Shown here: piece by piece, positions 2,478 to 32,020 of the stretch | Numbering within the stretch: the first letter of the stretch is position 1 | Layout of the letters: each line of letters starts with the position of its first letter | Assembly: GCA_022509025.1 (NCBI GenBank) | Contig: JAFLUB010000028.1 | Span: 1 to 36,795 of the forward strand | DNA from: Oscillospiraceae bacterium | GTDB lineage: Bacteria; Bacillota; Clostridia; UBA1381 | DNA: 36,795 bases | Direction: 5' to 3' | Notes under the pieces: model-generated | The model's database searches: none | Told to the model about the DNA's origin: nothing | Seen by the model: the letters and a program-made list of their open reading frames with translations, nothing else | Translations under genes and position numbers: made by a program

Positions 2478-2487
2478 AAATAAGAAT

Positions 2488-2549
2488 ACGCGCCGTCTTA
2501 GCGCCCACGATAAGCGCGTTGATAACCATAGTGGGCAGAAAGGCTGTGA
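2488..2549 (+). promoter_or_regulatory. repeated leader RNA element, copy 1 (comM)
   Basis: Hairpin ACGCG (2488-2492)/CGCGT (2515-2519) and CTTA (2497-2500)/TAAG (2511-2514), with loop sequence GCCCAC (2503-2508). The loop is complementary to GTGGGC (2531-2536), which is followed by AGAAAGGCTGTG (2537-2548). The alternative pairing GTCTT (2495-2499) with AAGGC (2540-2544) excludes the upper stem. This is the shortest of four copies and has no upstream domain. Its GTG is in frame with comM. Function is inferred from the other copies. Confidence 0.7.
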
Positions 2550-2557
2550 ATAGTACT

Positions 2558-7644: not shown

Positions 7645-8373
7645 ATGAACGTAATCGAGACAAAAAATCTGACAAAGGTATATAAAAACAACCGCGGCGC
7701 GCGCAATGTTTCGCTGACGGTTGAAAAGGGCGATATAATGGGATTGCTGGGACCGAACGGTTCCGGCAAAACCACTGTCATGAAAGCAATATTAAATCTT
7801 GTTCATTCCGAAGGTAAAGTTAAAATTTTCGGAATGGATTTGCATGAGGATTTTGAAAAAATCATGAGCCGCACAGGCGCGCTGATTGAGGCTCCGGCAA
7901 TATACAAGGACATGACGGCATATCAGAATGTTAAAATGCATGCGGCAATGTATCCCGGTACAGACAAGGAGCGTATTGAGCATATTCTTGATGTTGTGCA
8001 TCTGCTTCCCTATAAGAATGACAAGGCGGGAAAGTTCTCTCTTGGTATGAAGCAGAGACTTGGACTGGCAATAGCGTTCGTCTCTGACCCGGAGCTTATT
8101 ATACTTGACGAGCCTGTAAATGGTCTTGATATCGAGGGTGTAGTTGAGATAAGAGAAATTATAAAGAAACTCAATCAGGAAAAGGGAGTAACATTTCTTA
8201 TTTCAAGCCATATGGCGAGTGAGATTGAAAAAACCTGCAACAAGGTTGCAGTTATGTATGAGAGCGAGCTGATAGCCCGTTCGACTACGGAGGACGCTTT
8301 GAGGCTTCATCCTTCGATGGAGGATTATTTCCTGAGCGTTGTTAAAGAGAAGAGGGGTGAAGTAATACTGTGA
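7645..8373 (+). CDS. ABC transporter ATP-binding protein (BcrA/lantibiotic-protection type)
   Basis: A 242-residue ATPase subunit with all motifs: Walker A GPNGSGKT (36-43), signature FSLGMKQRLG (131-140), Walker B LIILDEP (151-157) and the H-loop ISSHM. The wording GALIEAPAIYKDMTAYQN is typical of bacitracin/lantibiotic self-protection ATPases (BcrA, EpiF, MutF types), which pair with about 250-residue ABC-2 permeases. The permease follows at 8536, separated by the repeated leader element; a two-component system lies behind it. The pair probably exports an envelope-active peptide or lipid. The stop codon lies inside the first hairpin of the leader. Confidence 0.92.
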   Translation: MNVIETKNLTKVYKNNRGARNVSLTVEKGDIMGLLGPNGSGKTTVMKAILNLVHSEGKVKIFGMDLHEDFEKIMSRTGALIEAPAIYKDMTAYQNVKMHAAMYPGTDKERIEHILDVVHLLPYKNDKAGKFSLGMKQRLGLAIAFVSDPELIILDEPVNGLDIEGVVEIREIIKKLNQEKGVTFLISSHMASEIEKTCNKVAVMYESELIARSTTEDALRLHPSMEDYFLSVVKEKRGEVIL

Positions 8374-8532
8374 TAAATCACAGTATCATGATTTGATTGC
8401 CCGTGCGAGTACTTTCTCGCAGGCTTCGAAAATCGCACATGGGCATAATATCCATTTAACGCCTTATCCGCCCACGATAAAGGTGTTAAAATTTTCAATT
8501 GGGTTTTGTGGGCAGAAAGGCTATGGATATTA
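8365..8532 (+). promoter_or_regulatory. repeated leader RNA element, copy 2 (ABC permease)
   Basis: Domains in order: palindrome ATACTGTGAT (8365-8374)/ATCACAGTAT (8377-8386); a hairpin closed by TGCCC (8398-8402)/GGGCA (8441-8445); outer stem TAATATCCAT (8446-8455)/ATGGATATTA (8523-8532); inner hairpin TTAACGCC (8456-8463)/GGTGTTAA (8482-8489) with TTATC/GATAA; loop GCCCAC (8470-8475) complementary to GTGGGC (8508-8513); then AGAAAGGCTATGG (8514-8526). GCCTT (8461-8465) can alternatively pair with AAGGC (8517-8521), giving a long hairpin that would cover the ribosome-site-like AGAAAGG. Its place inside an operon suggests separate control of the permease. Confidence 0.75.
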
Positions 8533-8535
8533 ATA

Positions 8536-9279
8536 ATGAGTGCTTTAATAATAAACACAAAAAGCGAGTTAAAAAAACTACTCAATAAGAAAAAATATCT
8601 TGTTATCACTATTTTATCGGCGCTTGTATGCCTTATGCGTCTTGGCGGAAACATGCTTATAGCAAAGGTTTCCCGCGGTGAGATGGTTATAAAGTCTAAC
8701 CTCATTATGGAAATGATTGGTTTCGTGACCGATATAGTTGTTCCTCTCGTGGTGTTTATGGCTGTGACAGACCTTTTTGCAAGCGAGATTCAGGAGGATA
8801 CTCTGAAAGCGTCGCTTATGCGTCCGCTGACAAGATTTAAGGTTATGCTGTCAAAATCGCTTGCCGCATTTTTCCTGGGCTGCGCGGTTATGGCCGCTAT
8901 GTTTATAATCTGCCTTATAGTTCAGATTGTATCCGGAAACGGACTTGCGTCAGCAGGGCAGGGCGCGGCGGCGTACCTGATAGATATGCTGCCTGTTATG
9001 GCGCTTGTGTCTATGGCAGTTCTTATCAATATGCTTTCCAAAAGCCCGACTTTGTCAATGCTTTTATGTATCGTTGTATACATACTCTTTAAATATCTCA
9101 ATCTCTATGTTTCGCCGGTGGGACAGATGATTTTTACCGCCTATTCACAGTGGCACCGGATATGGATAGGCTCGCTTCTGCCTTTGGGCGCGATGCTTTC
9201 AAAGATTGGTATTTTATTCGGTTCCGTCTTGATTTTATATACTTTATCGTATATAATATTTGACGGAAAGGATTATTGA
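8536..9279 (+). CDS. ABC-2 type permease of a BcrB-like transporter
   Basis: A 247-residue membrane protein with six helices: about residues 20-40, 60-84, 110-137, 150-172, 178-195 and 215-240. The cytoplasmic motif FASEIQEDTLKASLMRPLTR between helices 2 and 3 is the usual coupling segment of BcrB/lantibiotic-protection permeases. It works with the ATPase at 7645-8373. I start it at the ATG at 8536, just after leader copy 2; an upstream in-frame start at 8506 would lie within the leader pairing. The only ribosome-site-like sequence, AGAAAGG, is 15 bases away, so translation probably depends on the leader. Its stop overlaps the TTG start of the kinase. Confidence 0.88.
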   Translation: MSALIINTKSELKKLLNKKKYLVITILSALVCLMRLGGNMLIAKVSRGEMVIKSNLIMEMIGFVTDIVVPLVVFMAVTDLFASEIQEDTLKASLMRPLTRFKVMLSKSLAAFFLGCAVMAAMFIICLIVQIVSGNGLASAGQGAAAYLIDMLPVMALVSMAVLINMLSKSPTLSMLLCIVVYILFKYLNLYVSPVGQMIFTAYSQWHRIWIGSLLPLGAMLSKIGILFGSVLILYTLSYIIFDGKDY

Positions 9280-15467: not shown

Positions 15468-16475
15468 TTATTCCGCCACACGGTTTACCCATACAGGTTC
15501 TGTGTCAATAATCAAATCGTTACCGGAGTATACTTTAGATACAAAGCCGGAGTTTTCGCTCATTTCGTCAAGCTTTAATGTGGTCTTATATCCCATTGCA
15601 GTATCGTACAGATTTGTAAGAGCGAATTCACCCTCGCCGCCGTTCAGAGAGCGGAATGTGAGTCTCAGGACACTGCCGTCTGTTCTTGCCGCTGCCGCTG
15701 AATCTGTGGTAACGAAAACAGCCAAAAGACTATCATCATAAGTTTTGGTATTTACCGCGTTTGCGACACTGTTAACAGGTATGTCACCGTCTACAAGAGA
15801 ACCCTCAACAAATTCAAAATTCTCCTTGTTGTATTTTACCATTGCGGTTACAGCAGCGACATACGAATTCGTAGGAATGTTATTTGCGCTTATGTAAACA
15901 TCTACTGTTTCCCCTTCAGCTATTGTATCGGCGACTGTCGAAAGTGAATAGCCGGGGATTCCTGTGGCATTCATCGGGATATCGTTTGTGGTGATTGAAA
16001 TCGTATATTCAGCTCCGTCCCACTGTACGTCTGCATTGAGAGCTTCGCTTATTGCGCGCAGAGGAATCATTGTTCTGTCCGCAATAATCTGAGGAGGAAC
16101 GTCAAGATTTATGAGAGTTTCGGGAATGTCCAAGTCGTCTGATATGAGAAACGAATCAAGCATATTGCTCATATCATAAACTCTCATTGTGCTGTCATCA
16201 ATAGCAAGTTTTATAACAGTGTTATGGTCTTTGCTTGCGACTTCAACCGTTCTTGTTTCTTCGTACCACTCAACGTTAGCGCCCATAGCCTCGAAAACGC
16301 CTCTTGCCGGAACGACCGTGTAACCCTCGCCGAGAATGACCGGTTCCTGGTCTGCGAACATAATTTTTACAGAGTTAACAAACACCTCCGGTGCTTTGTT
16401 TTCTGCCATGGCTGCTGTGCCTGATGCTGAAACTACAGCTGCCGCAGCAACGATGCTTATTAGCTTTTTCTTCAT
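15468..16475 (-). CDS. secreted protein with stalk (copper amine oxidase N-like) and cohesin-like domains
   Basis: A 335-residue exported protein. The signal peptide covers MKKKLISIVAAAAVVSASG to AMAEN. Residues about 30-165 are one stalk domain of the Cu_amine_oxidN1 type, with the signatures VILGEGYTVVPARGVFEAMG and DRTMIPLRAISEALNADVQW. Residues about 175-320 look like a cohesin-type beta-sandwich (TVDVYISANNIP, then VTAMVKYNKENFEFVEGSL, and DGSVLRLTFRSL). No sortase or SLH anchor is seen. It probably acts at the cell surface; cohesin-like folds bind protein partners, but dockerin binding is not shown. Leader copy 3 ends directly at its ATG. It is divergent from cdaA. Confidence 0.8.
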   Translation of the reverse strand: MKKKLISIVAAAAVVSASGTAAMAENKAPEVFVNSVKIMFADQEPVILGEGYTVVPARGVFEAMGANVEWYEETRTVEVASKDHNTVIKLAIDDSTMRVYDMSNMLDSFLISDDLDIPETLINLDVPPQIIADRTMIPLRAISEALNADVQWDGAEYTISITTNDIPMNATGIPGYSLSTVADTIAEGETVDVYISANNIPTNSYVAAVTAMVKYNKENFEFVEGSLVDGDIPVNSVANAVNTKTYDDSLLAVFVTTDSAAAARTDGSVLRLTFRSLNGGEGEFALTNLYDTAMGYKTTLKLDEMSENSGFVSKVYSGNDLIIDTEPVWVNRVAE

Positions 16476-16641
16476 AAATATCCATAGCCTTTCTGCCCAC
16501 CAATAGTAATGAAAATCTTAACGCGCTTGTCGTGGGCAGACAAGGCGTTAAATGGATATTTTGCCCATGCGCCTGTTTTCGAAGCTTGCGAGAAAAAACG
16601 CAAGGGCAATTAAATCTGATAACGTGATTTTTCGCGTTATC
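16476..16641 (-). promoter_or_regulatory. repeated leader RNA element, copy 3 (stalk-type gene)
   Basis: Same order of parts as copy 2, on the minus strand: palindromic hairpin 16641-16618 (10 pairs, one G-U); hairpin closed by TTGCCC/GGGCAA (16609-16561); outer stem AAATATCCAT/ATGGATATTT (16561-16552 with 16485-16476); inner hairpin TTAACGC/GCGTTAA (16551-16545 with 16524-16518) and CTTGTC/GACAAG; loop GCCCAC (16537-16532) complementary to GTGGGC (16500-16495); then AGAAAGGCTATGG. The upper stem has G-C where copy 2 has A-T, a compensated change. The element ends at the base before the ATG. Confidence 0.75.
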
Positions 16642-19841: not shown

Positions 19842-19861
19842 TAACGTGATAAATCACGTTA
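19842..19861 (+). promoter_or_regulatory. palindrome in the rpmH leader
   Basis: TAACGTGAT (19842-19850) and ATCACGTTA (19853-19861) around AA, 12 bases after the -10 box. The core GTGATAAATCAC is identical to the first hairpin of leader copy 2 and nearly that of copy 3. It could be an RNA hairpin or a Crp/Fnr-like operator (TGTGA-type half sites); sequence alone does not decide. Confidence 0.55.
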
Positions 19862-21769: not shown

Positions 21770-22643
21770 GGAAGCTGCAATAGAAGCAGCTTTAAAAGAG
21801 CTTAATGTATCGCGCGAAGAGGTTGAAATTGAAGTTCTCGATGAAGGCTCAAAGGGATTTTTAGGTATAGGCGCAAGAGACGCACGCGTTAAAGTGACTT
21901 TAAAGAATGATACAGTAAGCGATGCTGTAGGCGAAACTACAGAAGATAAAAAGCCGCGTCCGGTGGTTAAGTCAGAAAGAGTTAAAAAACAGCCGTCCCA
22001 AAACGGTATAGAAGAGGATGCGAAAAAGTTCCTCGCTGATATATTTGAAGCTATGAATCTCGGAGTTGATATTGATGTAACATTAGACGAGCAGTCATTG
22101 ACGATTAATCTCTCGGGTGAGAACATGGGTATAATTATAGGTAAAAGAGGAGATACCCTTGACAGCCTGCAATATCTGACGTCACTTGTTGTTAATCAGC
22201 GTTCACAGGATTATATCAAGGTTTCAATTGATACGGAAAATTATCGTGAAAAGCGTTCAGACACACTTCTGGCTCTTTCAAAACGTCTTGAGGAAAAGGT
22301 TACGAGAACAGGAAAGAAATTCACTCTTGAGCCGATGAATCCGTATGAAAGACGTATAATCCATTCCAATCTTCAGAACAGCGAAACGGTAACAACGTAT
22401 TCTATAGGTCAGGAGCCATATAGAAAGGTTGTAATTGCGCCGAAGAACGCAAAGTACAAGAAGGACGGTTATAGAAAGAGAAATCAAAGATCGCCGAGAA
22501 AGGAAAAAACCGACGAGGAAAAGCTCGAACCGGGTTACGCAACAACGTACAAAGCGGATTTCAAGCCTCAGCAGCATAAAGCTGAATATAAGAATTTTGA
22601 GGATTATCTTGCAGCTCACCAGAGCGACGATACTGAAGAATAA
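21711..22643 (+). CDS. jag: RNA-binding protein Jag/KhpB
   Basis: About 310 residues in the usual three domains: Jag-N (KNKEAAIEAALKELNVSREE, GFLGIGARDARV, about 18-62), KH-II (about 120-175, with GKRG in MGIIIGKRGDTLDSLQYLTS) and R3H (about 185-245, MNPYERRIIHSNLQ). A basic tail of about 65 residues follows. KhpB forms an RNA chaperone complex with KhpA and affects cell division and elongation. The ATG at 21711, after AAAGGGG, lies inside yidC; an in-frame TTG at 21693 is less likely. A long overlap of this kind implies tight coupling with yidC. Confidence 0.94.
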   Translation: MSLSQFLKKNKYTEKSGKNKEAAIEAALKELNVSREEVEIEVLDEGSKGFLGIGARDARVKVTLKNDTVSDAVGETTEDKKPRPVVKSERVKKQPSQNGIEEDAKKFLADIFEAMNLGVDIDVTLDEQSLTINLSGENMGIIIGKRGDTLDSLQYLTSLVVNQRSQDYIKVSIDTENYREKRSDTLLALSKRLEEKVTRTGKKFTLEPMNPYERRIIHSNLQNSETVTTYSIGQEPYRKVVIAPKNAKYKKDGYRKRNQRSPRKEKTDEEKLEPGYATTYKADFKPQQHKAEYKNFEDYLAAHQSDDTEE

Positions 22644-22758
22644 CGTGAAAAATGAGCGGCGCATATCACCCTTTTTCGGAACCCCATGTATCCACATACA
22701 TCAGCGTTCCTCAAAATGGCAATCTGCTTGCTTCTTTTCCACGTTATAATATGTGCCG
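22640..22758 (+). other. structured region after jag with interleaved complementary arms
   Basis: ATAACGTG (22640-22647) is complementary to CACGTTAT (22740-22747), and CGGCGCATAT (22657-22666) to ATATGTGCCG (22749-22758, one G-U). These two helices cross each other, i.e. would form a pseudoknot or alternate. Inside is hairpin GGAAC/GTTCC (22678-22710) with ATGTA/TACAT, and GCAA/TTGC at 22719-22731. No ORF fits. It may be a 3'-UTR RNA or a small RNA. Confidence 0.45.
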
Positions 22759-30527: not shown

Positions 30528-30554
30528 TAAATATTACGGGAGATGGTTAACGTT

Positions 30555-30633
30555 TTCCCGATAACGTCTTATTCGCTCACGATAAGAACGTTAGCACTAT
30601 TTTATATAATTGTGGGCAGAAAGGCTATGGGAG
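30555..30633 (+). promoter_or_regulatory. repeated leader RNA element, copy 4 (Wzz-like gene)
   Basis: Hairpin TAACGT (30562-30567)/ACGTTA (30588-30593) and CTTAT (30568-30572)/ATAAG (30582-30586). Loop GCTCAC (30575-30580) pairs with GTGGGC (30612-30617) through one G-U. AGAAAGGCTATGGG follows (30618-30631). TTCCC-G-ATA (30555-30563) can pair with TATGGGAG (30626-30633), replacing the different outer stem of copies 2 and 3. GTCTT (30566-30570) can alternatively pair with AAGGC (30621-30625). The ATG inside it opens a 5-codon frame that ends overlapping the gene's own ATG. Confidence 0.75.
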
Positions 30634-30640
30634 ATAGGAC

Positions 30641-32020
30641 ATGAAAAAGGAAAGGGAATGGTTTCGTCGTTTTTTCAGGCGAAGCGAGGAAAAGTTTACC
30701 AGTGTGGACTTACGGGATGCGAATATTTTTAAAAAAGCATACTGTGCTATCGCAAGCAATATAAAGACCATAATATTTCTGATGTGCATTTTTATAATTG
30801 CTTGTACAGTTGTTATGTATTTTGGTCGCCGAGACTCAAAGAGTATTGTGCTTTCTCTGAATTATGAACAGGCATCCAAGGGACAGAACCCGAATCTGAC
30901 TCGTTATAATATCTATGAACTGAAATCCGAGGAGGTTATGCAGAAGGCTCTCGCATATGCGGGCTTGCAGGATGTGCTTACGCCGTCTGAGCTTTCAGAA
31001 AACATAGATATAGCAGAAAATAACAGCGGAAAGGTTATTGACCCTCTGGATGAAAATACATACTATATATCGACGAGCTATACTATTAAATACAGAAGAA
31101 ACAGAGAAATCAAGAATATCTCAACCGATGATATGGTAGCGCTGATATGTAAAGCGTATAATGATGTATTCCATGAGGAATATGTCGGAACAACATCTGT
31201 ATTGCAGTATGACCTTGGTGATATAGACGGTATGGAGTATATCGAGATTGCAAGGTTGTTCAATAATAAGGCGGATCAGATGATACGATATATTGAGCAG
31301 AGAATACAGGAAAATGCAACGTACCGTTCTAACCTTACAGGACAGAGTTTCCAGACAATAAGAAGAATGCTTCAGAATGTTGAGGCGTACAGTATAAAGA
31401 AATATTACTCGTTTGCTCTTGAATCAGGGCTTTCAAGAAACAGGGACCATTATATAAGAACTCTGAATTATCATAATGAAGATGTGCTTGGTATCAAATA
31501 TCAGAAGTTTATGATTGACTATAACATCAGAAAAGAGACAGTGCAGAATTATGACAGCGCTATGATAGGTACAGTCATGGTTCCTTCGGTAAATGAGCGT
31601 AATGAATATTATATGTCAAGGACAAATATAGGTACCGACTATCTTACACGTGACGCGGATTTCAGCTTGCAACAGGGCAGCCTTGTTGAGCGTGATATTC
31701 TTGAAAACAATGATATTATTGCAAAGGTTTCAGCGTCTAATGTGGAGGAAAGCGAGTATCAGAAGGCGGAAGAACTTATAGTCAATGTCGATAATGAGCT
31801 TAAAAATGTGGCAAATATAGCAGATACGACGGATAAGGATTATATAAAGCATACAACAAAGGATTACCTGACTTTCTCTGATTATGAGAATTCTGACGGG
31901 GCAATGTTTGTTCTCCAGTCTGTAATAGGATTATCCATAGTATTCTTCATTATCCTATGTTTTACATACTATTTTGTAGATGGATATATCAGGAGAAAGG
32001 AGGATAAGACAGATGAGTAA
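30641..32020 (+). CDS. Wzz-like polysaccharide co-polymerase
   Basis: A 459-residue protein with a membrane helix near each end (about 42-60 and 425-448) and about 360 extracellular residues rich in helix and coiled-coil (for example 190-300). That is the layout of Wzz/CapA-type co-polymerases, which set chain length. The basic N-terminus EREWFRRFFRRSEEK and the C-terminal RRKEDK tail are cytoplasmic. No kinase domain is attached. GGGAGATAGGAC precedes the ATG. The next gene overlaps by 8 bases and has the same layout, so the two probably form a hetero-complex. Confidence 0.75.
   Translation: MKKEREWFRRFFRRSEEKFTSVDLRDANIFKKAYCAIASNIKTIIFLMCIFIIACTVVMYFGRRDSKSIVLSLNYEQASKGQNPNLTRYNIYELKSEEVMQKALAYAGLQDVLTPSELSENIDIAENNSGKVIDPLDENTYYISTSYTIKYRRNREIKNISTDDMVALICKAYNDVFHEEYVGTTSVLQYDLGDIDGMEYIEIARLFNNKADQMIRYIEQRIQENATYRSNLTGQSFQTIRRMLQNVEAYSIKKYYSFALESGLSRNRDHYIRTLNYHNEDVLGIKYQKFMIDYNIRKETVQNYDSAMIGTVMVPSVNERNEYYMSRTNIGTDYLTRDADFSLQQGSLVERDILENNDIIAKVSASNVEESEYQKAEELIVNVDNELKNVANIADTTDKDYIKHTTKDYLTFSDYENSDGAMFVLQSVIGLSIVFFIILCFTYYFVDGYIRRKEDKTDE

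Follow-up and report, generated by a model that had tools for sequence, protein, structure and literature searches.

The window analysed here, a stretch of 36,795 nucleotides, comes from the genome of an Oscillospiraceae gut bacterium (G000; 2,489,293 bases or 2.49 Mb, 87.55% complete) and holds four copies of one element, each in sense orientation just before a start codon (ATG at 2558, 8536, 16475 on the minus strand and 30641). The sequence GTGGGCAGAAAGGCTRTG occurs four times exactly in the window, at 2531, 8508, 16500 (minus) and 30612, where shuffled sequences lead one to expect 0.02 occurrences. The initial annotation had placed four copies before gene starts, in a fixed internal order and with an orientation that follows the gene, and all of this holds. 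Copies 2 (8365-8531) and 3 (16641-16477, minus strand) are full-length, with a hairpin H1, a stem B and a last domain C made of helices P1, P2 and PK; copies 1 and 4 are worn remnants of the last domain.

Anatomy of the element

Copy 2 lies on the plus strand, where an ATPase gene (7645-8373) gives way to an ABC-2 permease gene (8536..9279) whose start codon lies 13 nt past the AGAAAGGCT of the copy. Upstream of the element, inside the 3' end of the ATPase gene, is the Shine-Dalgarno (SD)-like sequence AGGGGTGA (8353..8360), presumably the native SD of the permease gene. Hairpin H1, ATACTGTGATAAATCACAGTAT, follows at 8365..8386 and supplies the ATPase frame with its stop codon, TGA. Stem B (TGCCC-GTGCG ... 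CGCAC-AT-GGGCA) occupies 8398..8445. Domain C (8447..8531), identified by its score with model R1 (97.9 bits), pair counts and folding, begins with the 5' arm of P1 (8447-8455) and continues with P2 (8456-8468 with 8476-8489), which contains a potential anti-SD, GCCTT (8461-8465), and closes on the loop GCCCAC (8470-8475). This loop pairs with GTGGGC (8508-8513), which is followed by the SD of the element itself, AGAAAGG (8514-8520), and by the returning arm P1', ATGGATATT (8523-8531).

Copy 3, on the minus strand, has H1 at 16618..16641, stem B at 16562..16608 and domain C at 16477..16560 (104.7 bits), ahead of the secreted-protein gene that starts at 16475. Copy 4 (plus strand) comprises a worn domain C at 30552..30635 (61.0 bits), with an SD-like GGGAGATGG upstream (30538-30546) and the start codon at 30641. 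Copy 1, also on the plus strand, is the worn domain C at 2485..2554 (30.9 bits, E 0.0017) before comM, which starts at ATG 2558 or GTG 2546. R1 was built from 49 complete G000 copies, copies 2 and 3 among them and copies 1 and 4 left out. The gene assignments first made for these four places stand for the ComM-like Mg-chelatase and the ABC-2 permease; the supposed stalk-type secreted protein carries a copper-amine-oxidase N1 domain, and the protein called Wzz-like has no Pfam match at E 0.001.

The full element, about 165 nt long, has a constant order: an SD-like sequence, 3-8 nt, H1 (of the TTAACGTGATAAATCACGTTAA type), about 9 nt, stem B, the P1 5' arm, the P2 hairpin with loop GCCCAC, an A/T-rich linker, GTGGGC, AGAAAGGCT, P1', 1-7 nt and the start codon. 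Stem B is TGCCC-GTGCG/CGCAC-AT-GGGCA, and in other genomes its sequence varies with the pairing kept, as judged by eye. AGAAAGG is nearly invariant and shortened copies retain the 3' end. B, or C, or both are absent by motif in 24 of 73 places, so that H1 and B are dispensable in many copies; those without B are also without the P1 5' arm, which makes the full rod described below impossible in them. P1' is often SD-like (GGAG, GGUG, GGAU, GGAA) 6 nt ahead of the start. Since this form is missing in other orders (AATGATACTT), the pairing of P1' seems to count for more than its sequence. The arms of H1 pair with the flank specific to each copy (mean 3.13 bp in 46 copies, against 1.98 with shuffled flanks, maximum 2.48 of 2000), an excess that either selection or template-switch repair of imperfect palindromes could produce.

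Other hairpin repeats lie nearby. One, a 106-nt imperfect palindrome (TAACGTGAAAAAT...TTTTCCACGTTA; window 22641-22746, plus strand), sits right at the stop codon of a Jag/KhpB-like gene. Its BLAST pieces number 46 in G000, 37 in G006 and 28 in G002, and the loci read hold 27 copies with both arms (28 rows, one being an opposite-strand reading). It has the outer ends of H1, and some copies end in a GC-rich hairpin and GGAGATTnnnATG before genes. We considered it as a larger variant of the same cassette and rejected this, because in G000 it occupies mixed intergenic places and also gene ends. A lone H1-type hairpin, TAACGTGATAAATCACGTTA (19842-19861, plus strand), stands between a sigma-70-like promoter and what by eye looks like rpmH. 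A third repeat, the GC-rich hairpin CCCGACCCGC...GCGGGTACCCCGGAACCTTGTTGTT, is found in the H1 loop of several copies, upstream of the element (L008, L010, L036 with two copies, L060), and within the second repeat family (also L261, L264).

Insertion between the native SD and the start codon

The family was first described as having four copies; the genome holds far more. In G000, GTGGGCAGAAAGGCT has 59 exact matches and 87 with up to two mismatches (reversed control, 3), and R1 gives 93 matches at E 0.1 in 83 distinct places, the other 10 being opposite-strand readings. We examined 86 places, 73 found by motif and 13 by model; the 7 of the 87 pattern matches outside this set all have two mismatches and none is an R1 match at E 0.1. 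A reading frame that has 50 codons or more, or that runs open to the end of the locus, starts 8-19 nt past AGAAAGGCT in 80 of the 86 places and exactly 12 nt past it in 52, by a script that favoured ATG and the start nearest 12 (offset 8 once, 10 twice, 11 five times, 12 in 52, 13 in 8, 14 in 7, 15 in 3, 16 once and 19 once). Of the six places that do not fit, one is a chance match within coding sequence, one is a weak match, and four have frames that are short, absent or unclear. In other genomes the best R1 match is followed by a start at 8-14 in 29 of 29 cases (L072-L100). The tie to gene starts first noticed in the window is supported. The 57 matches to an exact pattern in named genomes are not independent evidence on position, since that pattern demanded ATG at its end; they fall in 56 stretches, all metagenome-assembled, of which 54 are titled as Clostridia or members of the class and two as 'bacterium'.

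Two coding explanations were rejected. The element might be read in frame as the true gene start (P1' is often ATGGATATT, and it is in frame 0 in 47 of 73 places), yet the remaining genes have starts out of frame with it, at offsets 10-16, and a preferred distance of 12 accounts for the excess. A conserved leader peptide from the GTG of H1 was discarded for this element, with frames and stop positions that vary among copies.

Host genes are unrelated. NCBIfam searches on 20 downstream genes show no common theme and so none of the functional coherence expected among the targets of a riboswitch. Cut-offs were passed by DegV, DnaX, TrkA, AspS, QueC, SpoVAD, CMP kinase, Apt and NrdG; best matches below cut-off, several of them in genes cut by the locus end, were inorganic diphosphatase, ClpB, AddB, HAD hydrolase, PurC, aconitase, MurG, ZigA/CobW, aspartate-semialdehyde dehydrogenase, PrmA and DnaN.

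Comparison with congeners places the element between the native SD and the start codon. Sixteen host genes were compared, with gene names recognised by eye; 13 have orthologues in congeners and each of the 13 has element-free orthologues with an ordinary SD. In G000 itself a clear old SD lies just upstream of the element in 11 of these 13 genes, the TetM-like gene having a weak one and comM an unclear one. At recN, 13 of 14 congeners have no element, and the argR stop, the SD and the recN start are close together; G000 has the same TAAGGAG, with H1 next and the recN start beyond the element. Fifteen further genes were queried in G013 and G006. Twelve yielded orthologues, at 23 sites, and Apt, Hpt and the CobW-like gene yielded none. 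Twenty-one of the 23 sites are element-free with a purine-rich SD, one (purC of G013) is a 3' stub, CAGAAAGGCTATGGTGATTACTATG, and one (comM of G006) carries another hairpin. An SD match of at least 4 nt is present in the 16 nt before H1 in 41 of 48 copies against 41 of 192 control windows, and one of at least 5 nt in 31 of 48 against 13 of 192; this set dropped 7 places without a simple H1, the H1 loop of five of these holding a large insert, and retained one chance match and three doubtful places. The same holds in a second genome from another genus, G090, where three of three genes are element-free in all relatives that have them (6, 7 and 8 genomes); the yaaA flank AACCACAAATTAGGAG is identical with and without the insert.

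The recN (L159) and comM (L188) genes of G006, the fourteenth congener, carry other hairpin inserts in this same interval. Because of them, it may be that more than one element lands in the SD-start interval. At yaaA of G017, one of the relatives compared with G090, AGAAAGG and a GC-rich hairpin precede the start.

Dispersed copies that are present or absent at orthologous sites are what a mobile small interspersed repeat would show, and the original statement that the element is not a DNA repeat is not supported. Copies have multiplied within genomes. When 46 copies were compared, the closest relative came from the same genome for 36 of 45, and still for 18 of 27 when G000 is left out (shuffled mean 4.7, maximum 15); identity is 0.78 within genomes and 0.60 between them, and loops are similar within a genome and dissimilar between genomes. 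Among the 49 complete G000 copies the average similarity is 80%, and the closest pairs, at different genes, reach 97% and 95%. A head-to-tail array (L122:1505-1950, minus strand) contains two complete copies and a shortened one, each next copy following the SD-like end of the one before.

The element is spread unevenly over its order (47 of 95 genomes with a match at E 0.001) and, by model R2 at E 0.0001, has matches in 37 of the 391 genomes of the class, and 28 of these 37 belong to 12 families outside the order; among 25 loci inspected from this class search, four have no central motif and several of the other 21 are weak. Copy numbers from these searches are lower bounds, as 47 (order) or 11 (class) candidates were scored per genome, and G000 itself gives at least 47 and at least 11. 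One viral contig in IMG/VR has a full copy, preceded by GGAGG and followed by a gene; phage and plasmid collections gave no match to the 168-nt copy 2. No mobilising gene was found in a test that took in Y1 transposases: IS200-type Y1 genes do not track copy number in the order. By eye, no target duplication or terminal inverted repeats are seen at the copies inspected, and no fixed target tetranucleotide is seen.

An RNA fold around the element's own SD

The element folds as RNA into H1, B, P1, P2 and the GCCCAC/GTGGGC helix (PK). Within G000 (49 copies), 96.7% of the cells of P1, P2 and PK hold standard pairs, against 93.7% when shuffled, with two-sided changes in 30 cells against 9.0; PK alone has none. 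Across genomes (50 sequences, six from G000, aligned with MAFFT), 93.1% of cells are paired against 89.3%, with 38 two-sided changes against 8.8 (slid controls at most 8). P1 contributes 97.0% pairing and 24 two-sided cells to this set; PK has three pairs with two-sided changes, and an extra pair adjoining it fails in 18 of 50. In other orders, as read by eye, P1 is wholly recoded (AAGTATCATT/AATGATACTT and AATTCACAT/ATGTGAATT), as is PK (GGCTCAC/GTGAGCC and GCCTAC/GTAGGC). Between the arms of P1 and of PK lie 50-70 nt. The outer helix of P2 averages 4.67 bp in 63 sequences from other genomes, against 3.70 with shuffled partners (maximum 4.16 of 500); there is no excess within G000 (6.33 against 6.09, maximum 6.44) or in the 13 sequences from other orders alone (4.31 against 3.88, maximum 5.0). 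The compensating changes reported at the outset are correct for P2, and so is the pairing of the loop GCYCAC with GTGGGC; P1 and GCCCAC/GTGGGC stay paired as their bases change, both within and between genomes. The conserved, aptamer-like fold with covariation that a riboswitch would have is therefore present.

Nested folding of 14 copies yields one long rod of P1, GCCUU:AAGGC and GCCCAC:GUGGGC. Exact GCCUU is present in 11 of the 14, and all 11 pair it with AAGGC (0.67-1.00 per base pair), by a program that weighs nested folds and leaves a pseudoknotted alternative outside its reckoning. GCCUU:AAGGC is nearly invariant and so has no support from covariation.

Proposed function and comparison with known systems

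We propose that this is a small dispersed element that acts as RNA, replacing the ribosome-binding sites of the genes it enters and bringing its own SD, which can be sealed; we put the probability of this reading at about three in four. Read from the anatomy, each insertion would part the native SD from its start codon and supply a new initiation site, AGAAAGG-CU-(P1')-nnn-AUG. The element opens with a GUG, spaced from the old SD as a start codon would be, and closes with SD-like sequence at start-codon distance from the old AUG, so that it can be seen as a 'start codon ... SD' cassette. The new SD would be under a translational switch. In the sealed state, the lowest-energy nested fold, GCCUU:AAGGC, GCCCAC:GUGGGC and P1 would form a rod over the SD and start region. 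In the open state P2 would capture GCCUU, GCCCAC:GUGGGC would become a pseudoknot and AGAAAGG would lie free between the pseudoknot and P1. Translation might then be set by folding kinetics, by ribosomes or factors that open the rod, or by initiation at the old SD and the GUG; a constant low setting is a further possibility. The element would have spread as a mobile element with the SD-start interval as its target. The tandem array and the 'GTG ... SD' layout prompt the guess that its joined-end form resembles an SD-start site.

A more far-reaching version is tentative and, in our view, has somewhat less than an even chance: a new class of mobile RNA cassette that integrates at the start of translation, recognises the SD-start interval, rebuilds two initiation sites, stacks in tandem on the ends of earlier copies and gives each host gene a bistable switch. 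Recognition might rest on a likeness of its own joined ends to an SD or a start, or on the mRNA or the ribosome. If this is true, the start of translation has been rewired for about 80 genes in one species, by an element whose copies also occur on a viral contig and across several clostridial orders.

Three other accounts were weighed. Were this a purely selfish, MITE-like DNA repeat, with hairpins that serve DNA transposition and an RNA fold of no translational role, the dispersed copies, empty sites, tandem array and palindromic H1 would all be expected, and other palindromic repeat families do inhabit the same genome. Such a repeat has no need of strict sense orientation or start spacing, however, and P1 and GCCCAC/GTGGGC pair over 50-70 nt and are recoded in other genomes around a nearly invariant AGAAAGG; we consider it improbable. 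The initial annotation called the element riboswitch-like, and two competing folds around its own SD agree with that in one limited sense; no finding suggests a ligand, and no function is common to the host genes. A true riboswitch would couple a ligand-binding aptamer (H1-B-P2/PK) to a translational expression platform and control a large regulon, and it would account for the conserved multi-helix fold with its pseudoknot, the sealed SD and the sense orientation at gene starts. Against it, 20 host genes have no theme, the same genes are element-free in congeners, many copies manage without H1 and B, and loops that are similar within a genome differ from one genome to another. We give this account little credence, and a regulon answering to one ligand is disfavoured.

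The presence of the element in several orders of Clostridia would also fit ancient selected leaders, lost patchily from relatives by precise deletion. This would require independent precise deletions that each restore the SD spacing, and recN is element-free in 13 of 14 congeners and several genes are so in all relatives examined; copies of the same genome, moreover, resemble one another. This history is very hard to credit.

Genes are known to gain promoters or terminators from mobile elements. An element that settles ahead of the start codon and puts a foldable ribosome-binding site in place of the old one, as favoured here, would offer a direct route to rewiring translation in many genes together, among them housekeeping genes, and one may ask how a mobile element finds translation start sites. 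The roughly 80 near-identical structured leaders, each in front of a different gene, also make up a natural library for which relatives with empty sites can serve as controls.

The element had been said to lack the signatures of several known riboswitch classes, and comparison with Rfam 15 finds no family for it. In the window only a tRNA is at or above its gathering threshold, 13 loci with copies from several genomes match no family, and copy 2 at E up to 5 has three minus-strand matches far below threshold. The literature searched, in which subscription journals are thinly covered, has no description of SD-start-interval repeats or of the element sequence. Translational riboswitches of the preQ1 type have a pseudoknot beside the SD and an anti-SD strand with two possible partners. 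The folds proposed for the present element resemble them in both respects; the element differs in its lack of an Rfam match and of a common gene function and in being dispersed as insertions. Non-autonomous elements of the IS200/IS605 type have a hairpin at the 5' end and leave no visible target duplication, as here, but here Y1 genes do not track copy number and no fixed target tetranucleotide is seen. Bacillus cereus bcr1 is a short, RNA-foldable interspersed repeat in many copies, of the same kind as the pneumococcal BOX and RUP. As one account describes them, BOX, RUP and SPRITE are, like the present element, short, non-coding, modular, RNA-foldable, numerous in a genome, different between relatives and sometimes transcribed in 5' untranslated regions (PMC3049150). 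They insert intergenically and also within genes, and terminal inverted repeats and target duplications are features of BOX and RUP, according to the same account (PMC3049150). Unlike BOX, RUP, SPRITE and bcr1, the element described here occupies the interval between SD and start codon, where its 3' end would become the new ribosome-binding site.
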